From contig OY997659.1 of the NCBI GenBank assembly GCA_963921795.1, positions 19,429,008 to 19,493,007 on the forward strand: a stretch of 64,000 nt of DNA. The letters are read 5' to 3'. This document shows positions 1,015 through 62,947 of the stretch, piece after piece. Under the pieces are notes generated by a model that saw nothing but the letters and a program-made list of their open reading frames with translations, ran no database searches and was not told the origin of the DNA. Numbering within the stretch: the stretch's first letter is position 1; every line of letters starts with the position of its first letter. The position numbers and the translations under genes are program-made. This DNA comes from Nannobrachium achirus. Taxonomy: Eukaryota > Chordata > Actinopteri > Myctophiformes > Myctophidae.

Positions 1015-1460
1015 AGTTTTCGGGGCAGAAACCACATATCTTTGTGTTGTTTAACGCCCTACTTGATCATACTACAGCATCAGATGAAAGCATAAATAGT
1101 AGCAGATCTACAAGCATGAAACAGCTCGTCGATCTACTACTTTTTAGGGGCGGCATTGGCTCAGGGGTAGAGAAACCGTCATTAGAACACAAAGGGTTCC
1201 CAGTTCGATCCAGGGCTCCCCCAGAGTTAGTGTCGAAGAGTCCTTGAAGAGTTGCTCCCGGTGAGCAGGTTGGTGCCTTGCATGGTTTCCTCCGCCATCG
1301 GTGTATGAATGGGTGAATGTAATGCACAATCTATGTAAAGTGTCTTGGATAAAGGCGCTAATGCACCAGTTACTATTTATTTACCTTTTACTTTTGATAC
1401 TTTAGAATTTGAATCCTGAAAAGTAACAGTTTTGGACGCCTGACAGAGATGATATGCAAA
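1015..1460. mobile_element. ATCGTC-family MITE split by a SINE
   Basis: The left part carries CCCTACTTGATCATACTACAGC and AGTAGCAGATCTACAAGC. The right part resumes with CTTTTGATACTTTAGAATTTG and AAAAGTAACAGTTTTGGACG. The SINE 1145-1388 is inserted at TACTTTT, which is duplicated (1138-1144, 1389-1395). Confidence 0.75.
1145..1388 (+). mobile_element. tRNA-headed SINE
   Basis: Pol III A-box-like TGGCTCAGGGGTAGAG at 1157 and B-box-like GGTTCCCAGTTCGATCC at 1195-1211. The 3' part is GTAAAGTGTCTTGGATAAAGGCGCTAATGCAC, the tail shared by many fish SINEs and L2-type LINEs. A 7-bp duplication TACTTTT flanks it. Confidence 0.8.
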
Positions 1461-2484
1461 TTGCAAACCATGAACCCTAAGTGTAGGCCAGGGTGAACAT
1501 TTTAGCGGAAATAGATGATCTACAAGCTCAGCCATTTTTGGTGTAAAGATCTGGTGTAGAGGTAAAGAAGGAGTGCACTAAGTATACAACCCTTGTGGAC
1601 CCCAGTCAACTAAGAATTGGGTTAAAGTAGTTTTAGGGGTGTTGCCATAGCTTTGTACTTTTTCTGTTTTGTATGTGTCTATGGAGTTAACCTTACTCTA
1701 ACAGACCCCCAGGTGTGGTTCTAATATGCAAATGTCTTCCCTGTGTATTTTAGATTTTTGGAGTCTCTCAAAAGCCTCTCAAACGTTACCCTATTTATAC
1801 TAAATTTAAAATTCCAGGATCTATTAATATGCAACTATGCCACGCCTGTCGAATATGCCCTCATTAATATGCCAACATGCGACATCCCCCCTACTTAATA
1901 TGCAGAATGCTCCCCGCCGCAAGAAACGCGTTATGTTGCACCAAAACACACACACACACACACACACATGCGTGAGAGAGCAAACGTGAGAGAGCAAAAA
2001 AAAACTAGATATTGCCAACTACATTCTTCGACCTGCTTGTTTACTTCATGGTTTACTTCCTAGTAGCTTTGCTTCCTACTATTACATTCTTTCACGTGTG
2101 TGTTTACTTCATGGTCCTACTTGTAGCTTTGCTTCTTGTCATGAGGCTGAATAGCCAAATCGGCACACTTTATATATATTCAAGACTTTGAAGAGGCCAT
2201 GATTGGTGCGTCCTGATGTGCTCTGGGATGACATCACGAAGACAACCGAGTGTCAAACCTGCTTTCACAGAGAGGGGGCTCTGAAGGCCATTTAGGGGGG
2301 TAAACATGTATTAGATGCTTTAGAAAAAAAACAGAGTGCTAAAAACCACCAGGATTTTTATAGATAACTAAGTTTCAAAAACATATTAAAAATTCAAAAT
2401 AACAGAGTCCATATTTAAGTATCAAGTATTTTCACCAGAAGCTGGTGAGCATCACTTTCTGGAAGATACTTCAGACATGTTTTT

Positions 2485-3038
2485 ACGGTGTGGCTTTGTT
2501 AGGAGGCTTGCTGTCTGTCTGTCTGTCTGTCTGTCTGTCCAGGGCTAATCTCTTTGTTAGGAGGCTTGCTGTCTGTCTGTCTGTCTGTCTGTCTGTCCAG
2601 GGCTAATCTCTTTGTTAGGAGGCTTGCTGTCTGTCTGTCTGTCTGTCTGTCTGTCCAGGGCTAATCTCTCTTTGTTAGGAGGCTTGCAGTCTGTCTGTTT
2701 GTCTGTCTGTCCAGGGCTAATCTCTTTGTTAGGAGGCTTGCAGTCTGTTTGTCTGTCTGTCCAGGGCTAATCTCTTTGTTAGGAGGCTTGCAGTCTGTTT
2801 GTCTGTCTGTCTGTCTGTCCAGGGCTAATCTCTCTTTGTTAGGAGGCTTGCAGTCTGTCTGTTTGTCTGTCTGTCCAGGGCTAATCTCTTTGTTAGGAGG
2901 CTTGCAGTCTGTTTGTCTGTCTGTCCAGGGCTAATCTCTTTGTTAGGAGGCTTGCAGTCTGTTTGTCTGTCTGTCCAGGGCTAATCTCTTTGTTAGGAGG
3001 CTTGCAGTCTGTTTGTCTGTCTGTCCAGGGCTAATCTC
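2485..3038. repeat. Minisatellite, 10 units of 50-62 bp with embedded GTCT tract
   Basis: Each unit reads TTTGTTAGGAGGCTTGC, a GTCT/GTTT tract, then CCAGGGCTAATCTC. The tract falls from about 7 GTCT copies in the first units to 2-3 in the last. Frame-open translations across it are artefacts. Confidence 0.95.
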
Positions 3039-4882
3039 GCAATAGACCGTTTGTCAGCCTTCTGATTGGTCCCTGAGACTCCCTGACTGGCCAACCAGAA
3101 AAAAACATTCACTTTTTGCTATCGGGGGTGGAGTTTGTGCAGTGGAGAATATTGAATGTGGCTTTCAACAACTGTCCGCAGTGCGCGACACGGAGATCGG
3201 CCGGTACGGTGATAGCGACGGCAAGCGTCAAGCGATCTCGCTCATCATAACGAATAAGCTTCAACAAACTAGTTCACATGTACCTTATCAATGGTCTAAG
3301 AGTCACGATTGGGTACATATAATTTAAATGGGCAGAATTACGAAAAGCCAGCCTATTATGTGAGGAGAAACATTCTCTCTGTCCTCTTCCTAGTACCCAA
3401 GATGCAATGCGCTTCTCTTTCTATCTCTGATCCAGAGGATTAAACTAATTAAAACATTTATTTTTCGGGGGAAAACTACTGTTTTGCTATGTAATTACTG
3501 TACCTTTTTCTTCCCTTTTTATTAATATCACGTAGATGTGTTTTTTGTGGTACTTTATATAGCTGTAATGAGGCTATGAAGGGAAAAAAAATCCCATCCA
3601 CTTCCACTATAAAAACAATCTGCCCAGGGTTAATGTCCCATCATAGTAACAGGGCAGAATGGGGCGGGATTTACAAAAGGGTTTATTGACACCAAATGTT
3701 ACCGCCACGCATTCACTTTCACATATCTGTCAGGTGGAAAACTCATCTGTCCAAAACATTTCAGGATGGAAATTCCAAAACAGCGAAGGTAGCAGATGTA
3801 CAATCGCTTCACGCTGCGTTTCGAGCTTATACTTTTGATGCTTTTGTGTGACACTGTGGTATGATCAAGTAGGGTGTTCATTTAACTCATTTACTGCCTC
3901 ACCCGATAATCCAGAGAAAAAGCCTCTCCGCCAGGCCCGATAAACCAGAGAATTTAACATGCTTTAATCGCTATAAAACATTTAAATGTATAATCGCTGT
4001 TTATCGCTCATCGGGGTCTAATCCACCACGTATCCGGTCGGGGGCAGGACCAAAGCGCAGCTACCGTTAGCTATCATGTAAACAGTGCTAGAAGGAGCTC
4101 AGATGGAAGTGTCTTTTTTCAATGGGATTTTTTTTCTTTGAAAGCTGTGATCGGGTGTACTAGTCTAGGACCTGGCTAAGATAATGTATGCGCTTAATTT
4201 AGGAGAGAATATCTCAACTGTTCTTGGCTAATATGACCCCTGGGAAAAACTTAAGAACTGTGCGAAATTCTCTATCCGGGGCGAAATACCCGAAAATGAC
4301 CTCGCCCTTTTAAAAATGACCACAACTTCCAATATGGCTTTATCTTCTAAACCGTTGGAGCTACACATTTTCTGAAGTGCTAAAAATGTTCAGAATACCA
4401 ATGTTTAGGGGGACATATACGTGTGTAACATTTCTAATTTCGATATTTTATGACAAAACAACTAAGAAACGCTAAAAACAGGCAACTTCTTATTGTCCAG
4501 GGCCTTTTTGCACTAATCAGTGTAAAACAATCAAACCTGTCCCAGATGTAACCCAGAGCATGCTCTAATGATTTAGGAAGGGTGCCCAGCGACTCTTCAG
4601 GGTCATCATTGTGGCCAAATCCAATATGGCTGCCATCTCAAAACAGTTTTGGCTATAACTATTGAACCAGATGAGCTACAAAATGCAAACTTGGTGTCTA
4701 TTCATGTTTTCTGGACATTTTAAACATGTTGGAATGCTTATCTTTATGATTGGGTGGGTCCGAACCAATTTGCATATTTCAAAGATAATGACGTTTATAT
4801 ACAACATTTTTGCTGAACATTGTTACACAATATTGTACTGGCTGTGTCTACTCTTATATTGTTTCAATAAAATTGCATCTAA

Positions 4883-5095
4883 GAAGCGACGTTGGTGTAG
4901 TGGTTAGTGCATATGCCCAGCCCTTCATACGGAAGGTGAGTGGTTCAGACCCTGCCTAGGCTGACGTCAGCAAAGGGGAGAAGACGACAGCCAGCCCCAT
5001 GGCCTCCCCTAAGTAACAAGAAATCTTAAAATTTCTTGTTACTTTCTAAAATGTTGCCAACCGGACGATGATACGCGAAAGGAGAAGAAGCATCT
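4883..5095 (+). mobile_element. tRNA-headed SINE-like repeat
   Basis: GGTGTAGTGGTTAGTGC (A-box-like) and GAGTGGTTCAGACCCTG (B-box-like) are spaced as in a tRNA. An AAATCTTAAAATTTCTTGTTACTTTCTAAAATG segment follows. It lies between the arms of the large foldback. Confidence 0.6.
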
Positions 5096-5225
5096 AAGAT
5101 ACATAGGTTGTTTGTTTTCTCCAGTTTTAACTCACTCCTAGAACTCTACACTCAATCTGGATGAAACTTTATGTTACATAATGATACATGTAATAATGTA
5201 TCACGATGATGTCATGAAGGCCGCA

Positions 5226-5990
5226 GTGTAGTATGTGAAACAGCACATGCTGACTTCATCCATCTGGATGCGTGGACGTCTGGACGTGTACACTTTTTTA
5301 CGGTCTATGGGTTTGCCGCTCTGACATAATTCTCTGACATCACTGTGATGTCAGGGGAACCACTCTAACAGAATGGCTTTGCCGCTCTGACGTCACGCCC
5401 TGGCTTCACTGTGATGTCACACAAACAGAGTCCCTTTTATGCCCATATATGGAGTTCCCTGATGTCATCAATATTAAGCCCATAATAAGTTGCTGGCGGT
5501 GCCAGCCTCTATCACACACTTCACTACCGCCAGGGGGTGGTGTTGAGTGCAGTCTGGTTTATTAACCAGGCAACATAATAAGGACTTCACATGACTTCAT
5601 ATGGGAATGCTCATACCCATGCCCATGCCCATACAGTATATGGAGGCCACATCGGCCACATACCACACTAACGGAATCCATATATGGCCAAGACAGATGG
5701 TCAAGACAGCCCATATCTGTGTGGCTGGTTCTACAGACAGGGATCTCCATCTATGGACATAAAAGGGTATGATGTCAGATGTCATAGACATCATAGGACT
5801 TTCACATAACAAATAACTGAGTGAGCATGTTTGGGCTCTCACAGCACATCTCCATATAAAGTACAAGGATCTCCATATACGGGTACCACGGGTCTCCATA
5901 TATGGGTAACTGGTCGATATACATCAGTGGCCAGATGGCCAAGACATGGCGCGACCTCGCCCTTTAGGGTGAGGTCGTTTGTCGCCCTGA
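5226..5990. repeat. Dispersed repeat rich in TGACATCA / TATATGGA motifs
   Basis: Shares TTTTTTACGGTCTATGGGTTTG, CACTGTGATGTCA, CCTGATGTCATCAATAT and TGTGTGGCTGGTTCTACAGAC with 30697-31210, and partly with 15488-15700. Confidence 0.75.
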
Positions 5991-7580
5991 GGCATCTTAC
6001 TCGTAATAAGCTAATTAAAGTGCTCTAGTGCTCTACCCTTGTGTTTAGACACAATGTTTGCTAAAAGGTGGCAAAGATTAAGTAAGGTACAGTCAAATAC
6101 ATTTTCAGATACACGTCATCTTTGAAATATGTTGAGATACACCCAGACATAAAGACAAGCATTCCAACATGTTTCTAATGGTCAAAAAACATGAAATAGA
6201 CACCAAGTTTGCATTTGTAGCTCATCTGGTTCAATAGTTATAGCCAAAACTGTTTTGAGATGGCGGCCATATTGGATTTGGCCACAATGATGACCCTGAA
6301 GAGTCGCTGGGCACCCTTCCTAAAACATTAGAGCATGCTCTGGGTTACATCTGGGACAAGTTTGATGGTTTTACACTGATTAGTGCAAAAATTTTCCCTA
6401 AGGCCCTGGACAATAAGAAGTTGACCGTTTTTAGCGTTTCTTAGTTGTTTTGTCATAAAATATCGAAATTAGAAATGTTACACACGTATATGTCCGCCTA
6501 AACATTGGTATTCTGAACATGTTGAGCACTTCAGAAAATGTGTAGCTCCAACGGTTTAGAAGATAAAGCCATGTTGGAAGTTGTGGTCATTTTTAAAAGG
6601 GCGTGGTCATTTTCGGGTATTTCACCCCGGATAGAGAATTTCGCACAGTTCTTAAGTTGTTCCTTGGGGTCATATTAGCCAAGAACAGTTGAGATATTCT
6701 CTCCTAAATTAAGCGCATACATATCTTAGCCAGGTCCTCTACTATACACACGCCTGGTGCATGATCCGTGCACAGATCGTGCGCGATGTGCATTTTTTGA
6801 CCAATATACCTTCATCGATATTGTTGCTAGTAGATCAGTTATTTTTTAAAGCATAAAATAGCGTAAGTGATAAAGAAACAGACAACACTTATATCACATC
6901 ACAATATTAACAATCCCAGATGATGTCTAGTTTCATTATCACAATATCAATATAATAGACATTTTTCTCAGCCCTGTGCATCTCTCCATCATAAAATGTA
7001 AAGGGCTGTCAAAAGGAATAGGTTCATGGCTTTTTAATTGCGGTTGGTAAGATATTGGACACTAACAGAGTTTCATTGTATTGCTAGTGAAGTTTACAAC
7101 CATATGTAATGAGGCTTTTGCAGAGTGATGATAGTAAAAATAGATTGAAGTCCGTCCAGGGCTGTGAGCGAAACAATGGCATCTTTTCAAAACTCTATTT
7201 GGGAAGCGTCGCAAACAATACATCACCTGGCCAGGACACTCTCCAAGGGGAGGGAAGGCTCCTGTTCCAGAGAAAGAAGCGGTGCGCCAGATTTTCCAAA
7301 ACTGGCCCACAAAAAAAAGACCGAAATGCTTTTCACAGCTCATTTAGTTTTTTTTCCAAAAGTCAAAACACTGCGACCTTGGCCGCGTCGTGCAGCTGCA
7401 AGTGCAGTAAAATCCTCAGTGTTAATTTATCCATTTTGGAGACACAACAGGGCTTTGGGAGGAAACAGGCTCTCATCGAGCGTGACAGCCAAGACCCCCA
7501 GAACTACAAACCGACGGTTTAGAGACATTGGTCTTCACGGTTTGAAGAGCAATTCGGGAAGAGGAGGGCATGAGAACAAG

Positions 7581-8309
7581 TAGGGATGGGACAATATGAA
7601 AATGTCATATAACGATTATCGTAACCAAAGAAATCGCGATTTACAATATTATCGTGATAATCAAAATATCCCCAACATCCATTATCCTGGAGTGGAACAT
7701 TTGACAAAAGATATTTTGTCAATTACATTTGATAGATAGATAGATAGATAGATACCTTTATTATCCCACAGGGGAAATTCAGTTTCCCAGAGGCAGCACA
7801 GCAGTTAAGGTTACAAGTTACAGAGAAGTAAGAAAAAGAAAAAGAGTACTGTAGTATACAGTCCAAAGAGCAAGCACAAAAAAAAGATAAATAAAACATA
7901 AAGTGTCGAAAGCTATTGCAAAAAGAGAAGAAGAATATATACATAAAGTGACCACGAAACATTCAACGCTCATAAGTGACACGTCACACACACACACACA
8001 CAAAAAAAAGCTATACTCAAGCATAACTTAGCAAACAGTGCCAAACAAAAGAGTGCACATAACAGTCACTGCTAGTCATTTATAGAGAGTGAAAAAAGAC
8101 TGTATCAAGTACGTATATTATAAATACCTTTTTACCAATTATAGAGGGTGTAAGTGGTACCGGATATCATGCAGCTCAGCAAATAAAAGGTGAATTGATC
8201 CCAGTGCATGACAGAGGACGATTTCACAATAAATGAATGTCCACGATACGATTATCGTGAGTGTTTTTTATCACGATTAACTATAATATAGTTTATCGTC
8301 CCATCCCTA
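7581..8309. mobile_element. hAT-like MITE (TAGGGATGGGACRATA family), with inserted repeat
   Basis: Terminal inverted repeats TAGGGATGGGAC... and ...GTCCCATCCCTA are flanked by a perfect 8-bp duplication AGAACAAG (7573-7580, 8310-8317). Near both ends there are ATTATCG-rich inverted stretches. A GATA run followed by a CCTTTATTATCCCACAGGGGAAATT-type LINE tail sits inside at about 7729-7820. A second copy is at 31640-32061. Confidence 0.88.
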
Positions 8310-8859
8310 AGAACAAGCTCATCTTGCACTGTGCACTGCACGTTTCATCCACAGGTTGCACCTGGTCAGACTTAGTATCTTATTACCCCAACCGAGCAAG
8401 GCCAAGAAGCTGTCGGGAGGCTTATGGCATACCGCTATGCCATATGGATGGACATTCTTCCACTCTGAAACCATATCGCCTATCCACTGAAAGACTTTGT
8501 GTTGAATCTGGTTTTGGACACAGCTCCGGCTACTAAAACATGGAGATGCGGTCAGAGAAGCGGTTGCAAGCCAAATTATGTCAATTCTTAGAAAGAACCT
8601 CAGCACATACAGTACAGCAGCAGACAATAAAAAGGTCTTTTGTCCTGGAAACAGTAAAACAGTGTTGCCGTGGTGAAAACACTATCGTGAGAGAGAGGGA
8701 TGAAGGCTGGACCCATTTTCTCGTCTTCAAGGGAAAGATATGCAAGCGATTTGACTAATTTGCAATGCAAATAGGCCTAGAGTAGATCAATGTAAACGTT
8801 TCAATGATCGATGGATGCGTGTCCTTCTTTGATCGCTGTGGTCCTGGTTATCACAATGG

Positions 8860-9190
8860 GGATTCAGTATGGCACACATAATAAAACCAGACTTATTTGG
8901 TGGCTTTATACATAAAAAAGATACATTTATTTCTGTACAAGACCTCCAGATAGTCATCCATGCCCTCATATCATACCGTTTAGACTATTGTAACTCCCTT
9001 TACACTGGGCTTAGTCGTTCTAGTCCCTACTCCAACTGGTCCAAAAGGGAGAGAGACCATATAACCCCTGTCCTGGCCTCTCTTCACTGGCTACCATTAC
9101 TGTTCAGAATCAACTTCCAAGATTGTCCTTTTCATATAGAAAGCTCTAAATGGGCTGACCTCTTACTGGCACTGTTTGCCATCTTATGGA
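8860..9190 (+). pseudogene. Fragment of L2/Rex-like LINE reverse transcriptase C-terminus
   Basis: One frame reads LISYRLDYCNSLYTGLSRSS and a later part HITPVLASLHWLPLLFRINF. These are characteristic of the end of the RT region of L2/CR1/Rex LINEs. The intervening residues are degraded and no catalytic motif is present, so it is dead. Confidence 0.75.
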
Positions 9191-9332
9191 TGCGACCGAG
9201 TATTTCCCGGTGAACCTGAGCACAACGGTGGGGGCTTGGGAGTGTGGGGAACACGCACCACTGACTATTGCTGATGATGGAGAGGTTATATAGCTTAGCC
9301 TTTTTATGTATTGAGAATGAGAGGCACTCTTG

Positions 9333-9363
9333 CCGATTTCGTAAGAGACTCTTACGAAATCGG
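9333..9363. other. Perfect 14-bp inverted repeat
   Basis: CCGATTTCGTAAGA, loop GAC, TCTTACGAAATCGG. It abuts the GGAT repeat that touches the GDAP2 exon 10 donor. Confidence 0.9.
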
Positions 9364-9402
9364 ATGGATGGATGGGTGGATAGATGGATGGATGGATCTT
9401 AC

Positions 9403-36961
<27,559 letters not shown>

Positions 36962-36999
36962 CTGCAGATAGGCAGAGAGGAGGGGATAACTCTGCATGC

Positions 37000-38540
37000 T
37001 ATAATGCACAGCACAACAACATGCAAGAACCAGAGCAGGAGGGGTACCCAAAGATAAGACGGATGAGAGAGATGGTGTAAAAGAGGGATGCGAACGGAGA
37101 CACGACCACAACGGGTGGCTAAAAAGGTTGTCTGCTTTTTCATCATAACCTTGACCGCCACTTCCAAAACACACTGCTTGTTGTGTGTTTAGCTCCCATT
37201 TGATCGGGTCCATAAATCGCAACTTAATTGCATCTGCGAATTTGATTGAAAGAGGAAAAAACATGTTGCGAGTCACATTCAGCCCATTAGTAGCCTACTT
37301 ACTTCATCCCCATCATCAGCAAACCATGCACACACACACACGCGCACGCACACACACACACTCTAACTGTGTTTTGGTAAACACTTTCTGGAAGTCAGAG
37401 AGTTGACTGTTGGTCTCCACAGTAACGGGCCGGCCGCTCGCCCCCCAGTGGTTCTTGTATTCATTCTTGTATTTGTTTTATTGAAGTTAAGGTTAGGAAT
37501 AAGGTTAGGTTTAGGCATAGTTGTACTGAGGTTAAGTTTAGGAATACGCTTAGGTTTAGGCATAGTTTTACTGAGGTTACGTTTAGGAATACCTGGGGGT
37601 GACAATTCCGAGGTCTCCAGCTTTGACCCGGGGCGAGCGTTCTTGTATTCGTCTCCACAGATGGTACATAGCATTAAATAAATAAATAAAGTAAATCAGC
37701 ACATACTGTAGGCCTACCTACGTTGTCACAAAGTTGACCTGGGTCCTCGGCTACATATCTCTCTGCACACCAAATATCTTGGCCAAAAATAGACGATCTA
37801 CAAGTCGTGAGCTTGTAGATGGTTCAAGACAAGTGATTGAATAAATCACATGGATTAGTCAAAACAAATCTCATGACTAACAGTTTTTGTTAGGCCAAGT
37901 CCCAATCTGCAATTTTGAATTAGTGTGAAAAGGCAGCTTCCCCACAGCGCTCTGTTCACTAAAACAACCAGGACAATTATGTACTGTAAAAGGTTCTGAT
38001 ATTATCTTTCTATTAGACTATATTTCCTGCTTTTGACATACAGCCACAAGAAAGAAATCACAGACTGTCGCCTTTATGAAAGCAATGGTATAGGGTTTTA
38101 TGGAAGATTCTGAGCACAGGTCTATATTGAAATTGTCAGTTTGACCAATACTCTTCTTTAATCTTAAAATAAAATTGATCTTCTAGGCTTGACTCTAATT
38201 TCGCAAGCAGAGCAGCCGTGTTAAAGCCCACAAGGCACAAGCCAATAGAAAGACATGCTTGCTGGGCTGGCCTCGATGGAATCCAATGACTGTGAAATCA
38301 GTCTAGGCGACAGAACTTTCATCCATGAAATCAAGTAAATAAATCAAATATTGAACTACAAGATGACGTCGCTGGAATCAGCGTCGGCGACTCGAGGCAG
38401 TGCAACCACAATACCTCATCCAGTGATTTATTTTAATTAAAAAAAATGTATCGTCATCTAAATTTGGCTAAAATTATTCTGAACTGATTTCTTAGTTATC
38501 GACTTCAATCGTATTTTAATGGGGCCAAGCAATATAAAAT
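37000..38540. other. GDAP2 5' intron, no gene seen
   Basis: Contains a TTAGGTTTAGGCATAGTT-type tandem at 37480-37590 (three ~47-bp units), a cassette remnant at 37785-37822 and unique sequence. Confidence 0.5.
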
Positions 38541-38556
38541 TAGCATTGTCACTTAC

Positions 38557-38640
38557 CTTGCGATTCCTTCTATCAGCACTGGAGGGAAGTGGCAGCAAAT
38601 ACAAAATGTTGAAATAATTACAACAACAAAAATCACAAAG
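38557..38640 (-). other. gdap2: Possible GDAP2 5' untranslated exon (3' border only)
   Basis: A strong minus-strand donor (CAAG then GTAAGTG, border at 38557) is the best candidate partner for the acceptor of coding exon 1 at 36963. The upstream end of the exon cannot be placed; the given right edge is arbitrary. An alternative donor of the same strand lies in the palindrome at 38982. Confidence 0.35.
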
Positions 38641-38902
38641 TATTATTGTTTTCCCTCATCGTCCACGGATCCACTCCGTCTCTATGTGCGGTCAGATTGT
38701 GCCTGCATATAACAATGTGTAGGCACAATGCTAAAGGTAAGTGATGTTATCAGTGTGTGTGGTGAGAGTCAGTTCCTGATCAGCTGACAATGACAGAAAA
38801 AAACAACACTTCCGTTGTGGATGGCTAGGGACGTGTGGTCAATGAAAGCGTTTGTGGAAAACGTGTAGCTCCTTTCAGAACCTCTCCCTCCGCTATGTAG
38901 CA

Positions 38903-39414
38903 CCGAGATGAGGTTCCTCACAACTGTCATCCACAATCATAAAGTTGCGGGGAAGCTCCGCCGTCAAGGAACACTTCTTACCTTTTGTGAACATCCTATC
39001 CAAAAAGTTAAGGCCCTAAACCGGTCTCTCAGGTGTTCACTACTTGAGCGTGGAAGAAAATCTAAGCGGCGCGTTGAAATAAATAGTTTAAATCGCTGTT
39101 TTTGTCAGCCTGTGGCCAGTTTTCTCGCCACGACCGCTTGGTGGCGAAACATTTCTGCAACACAGATGGCCAGTCACGTGAAATTGCATCGGGGGGGAGG
39201 AATGGCCACAGGCTGATAAAAACAGCGATTTAAACTCTTTATTTCAACACGCCGCTTAGATTTTCTTCCACGCTAAAGAATTAAACACCTGAGAGACGGT
39301 TATGGGACCTTTAATTTTTGGATACGATGTACACAAAAGGTAAGAAGTGTTCCTGACGGCGGAGCTTCCCCGCAACTTTCCGATTGTGTGTAATAGTCAG
39401 GAACTTCATCTCGG
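38903..39414. repeat. ~510-bp imperfect palindrome in the GDAP2/WDR3 intergenic region
   Basis: Arm 38903-39118 is the inverted copy of arm 39203-39414, differing by scattered substitutions and small gaps. The spacer 39119-39202 contains CACGTG and a small CGCCAC...GTGGCG inverted repeat. Each arm carries a splice-donor-like AAAAG/GTAAGA facing outward: plus strand border 39339, minus strand border 38982. The position between two divergent genes makes it either a foldback element or a duplicated, mirror-symmetric promoter/first-exon segment. The sequence shows the palindrome; the promoter role is inferred. Confidence 0.85.
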
Positions 39415-40582
39415 AGCAATGGTGGAAAAAGTACTAAAAATTCCTACTTGATTAAAAGTACCAATTACTGCCATGTAGATACTACGTTACAGGTAAAAGT
39501 CCGGAAAGTACGTTTCCGTTTCCCTCACTTGTTCCTTGAAAATTATATTAAATAAAAATGACAGAAAAATTCAAACAAAAGAAGCAATAAAGTACGTGCT
39601 ATAGATATACATACCTTATTATGTATATTGACATGACATATTTAAACAAAGTAACAGATGCAATTAAGGACTTACGCGTATTTTATCGTATTTAATTAAG
39701 AAAATAAATTAAAAACGAGGTGTTGACGTTCTTCTCTTCAGACTAACTTCAGACCAAATGCGACCGCCTTCTCATCGATCGAGCTGTGTTCGATTGGTAG
39801 GACCTGGAATACATAGTCTAGTGAAGTCAAAGGAAACACTCTACGAACTGTTAGCTAGTAGTTGCTGTATTTTAAAGGTAAGATCAAGGTTTTAATCTTC
39901 TATGATCCGCTATAAATGTAAGACAATTATATACATCTGTTTCCCCAACAATGAAACTCGTGTTAGTGTTTTTGTAAAGTATAGTTCCTTCCAGGCAGGA
40001 ACACAACCACGTGGGTGCATGATGTGTGTGAGTGATCTGTGGCAAAGCTACTAGGTGTGCTCGTTTTGCCGTGAATGTTGGCCGATTTGGTGGGGGTATA
40101 GATGTCTCTTAACGGTGTAAACATTGTAAACCCCGCTCATCCTGCCCACCCGTTAAATGAAACTAACAATCAGCATGTGAACACGCTGTTGATGTTGACA
40201 GTTTTTCTCTTAAAACTATAATGCAGCTACACAGTCAGTACAGTATTGTTACTTACTATTCATAAAGCTACATTAAACTATAATATACATTGTAGCCACT
40301 AGCCAGGCTACACTACAGTGACTATTTATAAAGCTACATTAAACTATACTGTAGCTACACAGTCAGTAGGCTACACCACAGTATAGTGACTATTTATAAA
40401 GCTACACAACTATAATGTATAGCCAGGGTATGCTACAGCAGAGTTATTATTCATAACTCTATGAATTCAGTACAAAACAAACAAGCCATAGTGATTTCTT
40501 GGGTTTAAATCCTATTAGTAGACCTTGTATCTGAACTGTACTGTCCTGTGCTGTGCTTTACCTATGCAACCTTCTAATAGTA

Positions 40583-40591
40583 TTCAATCAA

Positions 40592-40629
<38 letters not shown>
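40583..40629. repeat. CAAT short tandem repeat upstream of WDR3
   Basis: AATCAATCAATC run. Shorter CAAT runs occur at 42629 and 63160 as LINE/SINE tails. Confidence 0.9.
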
Positions 40630-40630
<1 letters not shown>

Positions 40631-41162
40631 GTGTAGCCAGGCTACACTACAGTATAGTTTTAGTTTGTATTCGTAAAGCTACATCAAAGGTCTCTTTCAA
40701 ACATAAGTAGATAGCTATAGCTGCTACAAAGTCAATAGTGTAATAGTAGACGGCTACATTGAAGTTAAGACTTTTGTATTAATGTGTACCTAATGCATTG
40801 GTACTGTGACATGTTATGACAATGAGTGAATAACACATATGACTGTGTATAAGCTACAAATGGATGAAAGATGTTAAAAACCGCTCTCACCCCTCGATGT
40901 GCCACTGCAAATGTAGTGATGGAGCTTTTGACTAGCTACTGTACATGGTCAGTAGTTACACGGTTGTTTGTTATTTGTTTGTTTGTTTGTTGTTCAATTT
41001 CTGGTGAAGAATAACATTTAACTACATGAAAAGCTTCCACAAATAGCAAATAGCCAGCACCTATAGGGCTGTCATGATTATGACATTTTACATTACGATT
41101 AATTGTCACCTAAATATAGAAAGAAATTACTGACATGTTTGACAACGTTATACTTAAAATAG

Positions 41163-41240
41163 AACATTGATAGTGGAAATAGCCGATCTACAAGCTCACA
41201 ACGCGTCACAGATCTTGTAGATCTGCTGTTTCCACTATTT
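41163..41240. repeat. Hairpin cassette with matching flanks
   Basis: AGTGGAAATAGCCGATCTAC ... GTAGATCTGCTGTTTCCACT. The pairing extends past the usual border into the flanks. Confidence 0.8.
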
Positions 41241-41559
41241 TTGAAAATGTTATATATATGAAAATCTTTCAACGTGGCTTTGTGTCTTTTTAATGTGTCA
41301 TAATAGGATGGCAAACCATCATATTCATCATCCTACCTAGCCAGTGGATAAGAACAAGCCCATGCAGTTAGTATGTGAACACCTTACTGTTGTTAACTGT
41401 TTTCCAACAGGCCTAGTAGTTCCACTAAAAGTTAAAACTGCTTGTCTTTTGTTGTCACCTATACATCAAATGCATAGAAATGTCAATCTAGAAAACATAA
41501 CGTAGGTAGACCAAGCACCTAATTAAAAAAAAAAAAAAAAGGTTATATGAAAAAAAAAA

Positions 41560-41850
41560 GCTATCTAGCTTTCAGGTATGGTCATTGAGGGTAGGCAAGT
41601 GCTATGGTAAGTGCTATGGGCTTAGGTGGAGTGTGAAGAGGTGAGTCTTCAGGCCACGGCGGAAGCTAGGGAGTGAGTCTGTTGTTCTAAGTGCGATAAG
41701 GAGTTTATTCCATAGTTTGGGGGCCAGGAGGGTGAATTGTTTTGGACGAGTGGATTTTTGTCCTGGGGTTTTTAGCGAGGGTTCTGTCAGCATCCCTGTG
41801 TTAGCTGATCTGAGTGAACGAGTGGGGTTGTAGGGGTTGATCAAAAGCAA
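41560..41850 (-). pseudogene. Fragment of L2-like LINE C-terminus
   Basis: The minus strand reads APKLWNKLLIALRTTDSLPS then FRRGLKTHLFTLHLSP, a typical L2-type ORF2 end. The same family lies at 33270-33490 and 48480-48620. It is immediately upstream of the WDR3 coding exon 1 acceptor. Confidence 0.7.
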
Positions 41851-41890
41851 AATAATTGTTTTAATAAACCCTTCCTTTGTGTAACTTCAG

Positions 41891-62947
<21,057 letters not shown>

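Follow-up and report, generated by a model that had tools for sequence, protein, structure and literature searches.

Scattered over the 64-kb stretch of Nannobrachium achirus DNA analysed here (the window) is a short near-palindrome, which a first-pass annotation described as a recurrent hairpin cassette and for which it proposed three identities: a mobile hairpin, a recombination substrate or a structured RNA. The question raised by this locus is what the sequence is and how it came to be present at so many places. The hairpin is probably a palindrome of about 73 nt that resides in miniature DNA transposons of several kinds, most of them with ends of the hAT type, and that reached about 0.8 million copies through the multiplication of its carriers. 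This reading is built on the copy number of the hairpin, its position within elements where boundaries are resolved, the existence of carriers with different ends and the co-variation of the two arms.

Recurrence of the hairpin in the window

The recurrence claimed at first pass is genuine, both here and in the genome at large. The arm TAGCAGATCTACAAGCTC has 36 matches in the window at up to 3 mismatches, against a mean of 0.01 in shuffled sequence, and none of 100 shuffles reaches 36. A profile model built from 13 window copies, and circular for those 13, gives a match at E<0.01 at 25 of the 28 positions listed earlier when the window is searched alone; 46045, 61705 and 62485 give weak matches in that search (E 0.21, 0.4 and 0.56, respectively). 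When 362,705 bp are searched jointly, 21 of the 28 positions are recovered at E<0.01, together with two additional window copies, at 10195 and 16353. The same profile yields no match at E<0.01 on 640 kb of first-order Markov sequence. The listed positions 34027, 41163 and 43106 lie 11-38 bases off the start of the profile match, and the matches at 29516, 37785 and 52331 are short (32-39 bases). The absence of the hairpin from a young LINE, also claimed earlier, holds as well, the LINE region (17750-25300) being free of any match at E<0.01. Table 1 lists the hairpins and related features.

Three other features of the window are recorded here. Two open frames at 18262-25157 are 327 and 1268 codons long; the longer one resembles, as judged by eye, a LINE-1-type endonuclease/reverse transcriptase. 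A UnaL2 LINE 3' element match is located at 32387-32441 (54.1 bits, where the gathering score is 55), and an open frame with WD-repeat-like residues at 42591-43118 looks by eye like a WDR3-type exon.

Table 1. Hairpins, carrier elements and a hairpin-less relative in the window
Positions	Feature	Strand	Fold z-score
1094..1146	Hairpin, E2 flank type	.	
3782..3845	Hairpin, E2 flank type	.	
7628..7739	Hairpin-less relative of D2 flanks, with the short palindrome TTGACAAAA-GATA-TTTTGTCAA instead	.	
9767..9843	Hairpin, family 1 flanks	.	-8.7
10026..10096	Second hairpin of the 9767 stretch, family 1 flanks	.	
10195..10223	Short match absent from the earlier list, without flank type	.	
10675..10752	Hairpin within family B; hAT-type ends CAGGGGTCTTCAAC, inner TTAACC...GGTTAA module	.	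-11.7
16353..16384	Short match absent from the earlier list, E flank type	.	
27778..27829	Hairpin with shortened centre, without flank type	.	
28755..28832	Hairpin, family 1 flanks	.	
31871..31938	Hairpin, D2 flank type	.	
33543..33577	Short match, without flank type	.	
33989..34052	Hairpin, E2 flank type	.	
35172..35246	Full-length hairpin, without flank type	.	-9.2
37782..37820	Short match, without flank type	.	
41174..41233	Hairpin, D flank type (TAGGGCTGTCACGA element)	.	
43093..43142	Hairpin, E2 flank type	.	
44680..44744	Hairpin, G flank type nearest	.	-6.8
47158..47458	Complete hAT-type element, 301 bp, ends CAGTGCTTCTCAAA, target duplication CTCTAAAC/CTCTAACC (1 mismatch), hairpin within	.	
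47240..47307	Hairpin within the 47158-47458 hAT-type element	.	
49755..49812	Hairpin, E2 flank type	.	
52329..52360	Half hairpin within family B	.	
55407..55452	Hairpin, E2 flank type	.	
56919..57141	MITE, 223 bp, ends TCGTC...GACGA, TA on each side, hairpin in the middle	.	
56986..57055	Hairpin within the 56919-57141 MITE	.	-8.7
58987..59063	Hairpin, E2 flank type	.	

Anatomy and folding

The full form is a near-perfect palindrome, AAAAATAGC...GCTATTTTT, in which 63 nt running from TAGC to GCTA are preceded by an A run and followed by a T run, giving 73 nt in total. Five window copies fold with z-scores of -6.8 to -11.7. Pair counts are restricted to an anchored set of 81 of the 161 profile matches, in which both arms are well kept and the flanks are long enough; the other 80 matches are outside these counts. 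The 63-nt span is complete in 32 of the 81 anchored copies, and the rest are shortened in the centre, to between 30 and 61 nt, save two of 79 and 80 nt. The two sides of the centre are trimmed unevenly (r = 0.04, with 19 of 46 within 3 nt), and symmetric centre deletion is not supported.

Abundance in the genome

The assembly, 1.6585 Gb in all, contains 422,425 arms at up to 1 mismatch (211,429 forward and 210,996 reverse), and the exact pattern TACAAGCTC-N5..35-GAGCTTGTA is found at 125,903 places; the control is 0 in both cases. Counts at E<0.01 in 25 sampled 10-kb regions, which contain from 0 to 12 hairpins each, amount to 123, or about 816,000 by extrapolation to the genome. One of these regions, L009, was picked near a listed arm; without it, 112 hairpins in 240 kb extrapolate to about 774,000. 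The genome therefore carries, by extrapolation, about 0.8 million hairpins.

Two tandem arrangements of the arm were encountered. At G000:C1:3708150-3708572, eight exact arm copies follow one another at intervals of 45 bases or a multiple of 45 and may represent a satellite-like array of hairpin origin, and L004:597-739 holds a short tandem array with a 25-base unit. Elsewhere, an exact 18-mer of the hairpin is present in four stretches in viral contigs and four in prokaryote contigs, where a few chance matches are expected by our own arithmetic. A literature search with four hairpin strings and by topic, at the level of titles and the beginnings of abstracts, found no description of this hairpin.

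Carrier elements

For the minority of copies whose boundaries can be resolved, the hairpin is located within elements of 215-570 bp. Ends of the CAGGG, CAGTG or TAGGG type and 8-bp target duplications are the marks of hAT elements. Exact 8-bp direct repeats with a TIR of at least 10/14 surround 15 of the 161 hairpins, compared with 7.7 for random places, and 8-bp repeats with at most 1 mismatch and C/TAG ends surround 17 of 161, compared with 7.2. The 8-bp duplication is established for these 15 and 17 resolved carriers, and two of the 15 (L037 and L013:9287) are without hAT-like ends. Chance alone would give well under one exact case by our own arithmetic; such elements abound throughout the genome, so that random places still reach 7-8 and the enrichment is modest. 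Scans for direct repeats of other lengths, again against random places, gave 24 vs 14.7 for 6 bp, a count that includes the 6-bp part of the 8-bp cases, and, near the control, 6 vs 4.0 for 7 bp and 2 vs 3.0 for 9 bp.

Twelve hAT-type terminal sequences enclose hairpins between 8-bp duplications, eleven exact and one with 1 mismatch: CAGGGACGTGCTGG, CAGTGGTTCTCAAA, CAGGGGTCTTCAAC, CAGGGGCGTCACAC, TAGGGCTGTCACGA, TAGGGCATTAACGA, CAGTGTTG, CAGTGCTTCTCAAA, CAGGGGTTCCCAAA, CAGGGTTCCCCAAT, CAGGGTTTCCGCTA and CAGGGACGTGCAGA (the family B end being taken from the B alignment consensus). All twelve are terminal inverted repeats of the hAT kind, beginning with CAG or TAG. Two pairs are close (CAGTGGTTCTCAAA/CAGTGCTTCTCAAA and CAGGGACGTGCTGG/CAGGGACGTGCAGA), and about ten sequences are left after near-identical ends are merged. 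The hairpin is off-centre in some carriers, starting at base 55 of 439 in element O and at base 76 of 280 in element Q, and four complete family 1 elements contain two hairpins each, mutually inverted in the aligned copies.

Other carriers have ends of a different kind. The hairpin of family E belongs to a smaller stretch with the ends TCGTC...GACGA (L019, L020 and L023). Twelve such end pairs were found, seven of them with the hairpin, and TA is present on both sides in two of these seven. The five hairpin-less pairs include two in transposase loci, two that are chance-like and one, L017:143-465, with one family-matching end. Family B contains a TTAACC...GGTTAA module with both ends, 172-216 bp long and TTAA-flanked in appearance. 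Among 116 piggyBac transposase matches, the six examined with about 1.5 kb on each side show no paired TTAACC ends, which may lie beyond. Separately, two hairpins (L034:2990 and 3883) are located in the flank of a piggyBac transposase match, and at G000:C2:71346413-71843994 the piggyBac transposase domain is matched repeatedly on the same strand within 0.5 Mb, for the most part without stops.

From their length of 215-570 bp alone, we infer that the carriers are non-autonomous, and they are presumably mobilised in trans. Against the carrier reading counts that no transposase source is linked to them. The hairpin would have risen to about 0.8 million copies as these carriers multiplied, and its entry into each of them may have taken place by insertion, by exchange at the palindrome or by descent from one early carrier.

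Flanking sequences and possible common descent

In a first alternative, all carriers go back to one early palindrome-cored MITE, perhaps TTAACC-ended, copies of which landed in several hATs and multiplied with them while the flanks diverged. We consider such a single ancestor a serious but somewhat doubtful account. Immediately beside the hairpin the sequence is diverse. Hairpin-masked flanks of 60 bp from the 161 copies form 10 groups and 34 singletons at E<=1e-3, and 12 groups and 42 singletons at E<=1e-5; shuffled flanks give 0 links. The largest group expands to 88 of 161 copies at 120 bp and to 144 of 161 at 200 bp, and an unmasked version joined 123 of 139. This merging with longer flanks means that common descent is possible for part of the carriers. 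The cassette edges look sharp at 60 bp and for ten single copies, whereas longer flanks join most copies, and these more distant links may reflect either related carriers or shared neighbours.

A comparison of one copy each of 10 flank types, from which O and Q were excluded as having no anchored arm pair, places 4 of 180 flank pairs at <=2/200 shuffles, against about 2.2 expected, and two of the four are within E/E2. The immediate flanks of these types are therefore at chance similarity, which speaks against a single ancestor, while their hairpins align at a median score of 32. The flanks of B and D2 are alike by eye; the one-copy test did not flag them. By flank similarity to 14 seeds, 124 of the 161 hairpins are assigned and 37 are not, and free-standing hairpin copies are possible among the 37.

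The TTAACC-type motif counts in favour of the single ancestor. It is found 15-70 bp outside 37 of the 161 hairpins, compared with 54 of 805 random places (6.7%), and of 67 motifs of this type 43 have a hairpin no more than 200 bp away; family B, as described above, has both ends. The enrichment suggests that some of the carriers share a common origin. However, the D, G, K, O and Q elements are without the motif at up to 2 mismatches, and the predicted TTAA empty site of B gave a single match genome-wide, with 3 mismatches. The refuting case named in the first-pass annotation, that the hairpin is the internal part of a single, already described MITE with no independent distribution, is half borne out: the hairpin is internal to MITEs, but these are of several kinds.

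Gain or loss of the hairpin

In the second alternative the cassette is a parasite of transposons that inserts on its own, in many cases into short palindromes within MITEs. The many groups of hairpin-adjacent flanks and the chance similarity among the 10 types speak for this, as do the stems just outside the A/T runs, where six different paired three-base outer stems are found in 25 of 69 copies (14 copies with the family 1 TTG/TTC pattern are unpaired there). Moreover, short palindromes occupy the place of the hairpin in hairpin-less counterparts at two places. The first is a complete K-type hAT element (L009:8253-8670) with the ends CAGTGTTG and the exact duplication TTGAGGTA, which has the palindrome GCGTGCTGAAAATTTCAGCACGC where its relatives carry the hairpin; a hairpin-bearing K relative, L009:656-1165, has its own duplication, CAATATAT. 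The second is the hairpin-less relative at 7628-7739 in the window. E-type end segments without a hairpin are also present at L015:4550-4681.

Against insertion by the hairpin itself stand the numbers. The hairpin-less site of family K is found once genome-wide (33-base pattern), whereas the hairpin edge with the same flank is found 3,649 times (28-base pattern), both at up to 3 mismatches, the 33-base pattern being the stricter; the empty-site count covers that junction, hairpin-less forms with other junctions being uncounted. With 3,649 places against one, the hairpin of this family spreads with its host MITE; most simply, family K already had the hairpin when it was amplified and later lost it from the one empty copy. 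For element O, a query of the two joined flanks agrees, none of its best 41 matches spanning the join (40 of 339 candidates were scored), and no fixed-length direct repeats were noticed at the hairpin edges in an unsystematic look. Presence and absence at otherwise identical sites, in the numbers that an independent mobile hairpin would leave, were accordingly not found in K.

The K counts and the location of the resolved hairpins within MITEs do not bear out the first-pass proposal of a mobile hairpin, and independent insertion is unlikely. Hitch-hiking with the host MITE is what the present spread of the hairpin looks like. A broader idea, which we regard as a long shot of slightly better standing, is that the 73-nt hairpin is a transposon of transposons, passing between MITE families either by inserting itself into palindromes or through template switching that the hairpin directs in repair, and so reaching about 0.8 million copies without coding capacity or ends beyond its stem.

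Co-variation of the arms

The first-pass impression of a conserved outer stem around a variable centre, with paired bases seemingly maintained or repeatedly converted, is supported by strong co-variation. A test for compensatory changes in the two stems finds that 22 of 40 pairs are changed on both sides among the 32 full-length copies. Double-change cells number 115, compared with 52.3 in shuffles that take no account of copy relatedness (0 of 500 reach 115) and with 19-32 when the partners are slid. Because of this neglect of relatedness, the clearest statement comes from one pair counted genome-wide, by copies rather than events: T-A is present in 125,903, A-T in 32,632 and a mismatch in 2,373 (1,200 and 1,173). 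Rare variants add 13 double-paired cells against 5.3 expected (the largest of 500 shuffles has 12), a weak sign of arm matching after subfamilies arose. Pairing at offsets 4, 8 and 18 is found in 63, 65 and 56% of copies, respectively, so that individual copies may escape matching.

In the yeast lineage, template switching between the arms of inverted repeats is described as a mutational process (PMC8604942). It is not a repeat family, and what it has in common with the present case is that it homogenises arms and predicts paired double changes without RNA selection. Single mismatches are G.T in 33 cases and A.C in 28 (28 vs 24 among rare variants); wobble mismatches are therefore not favoured, and DNA-level re-copying fits better than RNA selection. 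The near-equal counts point to a DNA process, of which template switching is one example, as the cause of arm similarity. The arms would have been re-matched by DNA-level template switching, or by conversion between the inverted arms, as subfamilies arose, and the recombination substrate of the first proposal is a possible route by which they stay alike.

A selected RNA hairpin, for instance a small-RNA precursor kept by compensatory changes, would account for the stable folds and the strong co-variation, but it is very improbable given the missing bias of G.T over A.C, the recurrent mismatches at the three offsets and the Rfam search of the window, in which no match is above its gathering score (the only one that overlaps a listed copy is SCARNA7 on the GT repeat at 29516, 27.7 bits vs 65). 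The wobble counts and this Rfam result speak against RNA selection, and the structured RNA suggested at first pass is not supported.

Relation to known elements and significance

The carriers resemble the hAT-type MITEs of vertebrates in their length of 280-570 bp, their CAGGG, CAGTG or TAGGG ends and their 8-bp duplications; here, by contrast, differing ends share one palindrome. Angel is a hairpin-forming inverted-repeat MITE of zebrafish, likewise a teleost. Its copy number is put at 10^3-10^4 (PMC2579443). Compared by description only, the two are alike as hairpin-forming inverted-repeat elements of teleosts, whereas the present one has about 8x10^5 copies and resides within other elements.

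Double-hairpin elements and other mobile palindromes of mitochondria are the subject of two reports (PMC4478555, PMC5910586). The likeness lies in the short dispersed hairpins; the mitochondrial ones differ in being organellar and are not known to have a carrier transposon. A further parallel comes from SINEs, different families of which have highly conserved domains in common; one such domain is reported to have spread with the MER6 DNA transposon (PMC6887750). In both cases a short internal module is found in many families; here the module is a palindrome and its hosts are DNA transposons.

If one short palindrome does join many MITE families, modules would pass between DNA transposons as domains pass between SINEs. 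Long palindromes are held to be unstable, and a near-perfect hairpin could, if the same holds, last at near a million copies. The 125,903 places at which both 9-base arm parts are exact constitute a large natural data set for arm re-matching and palindrome decay.
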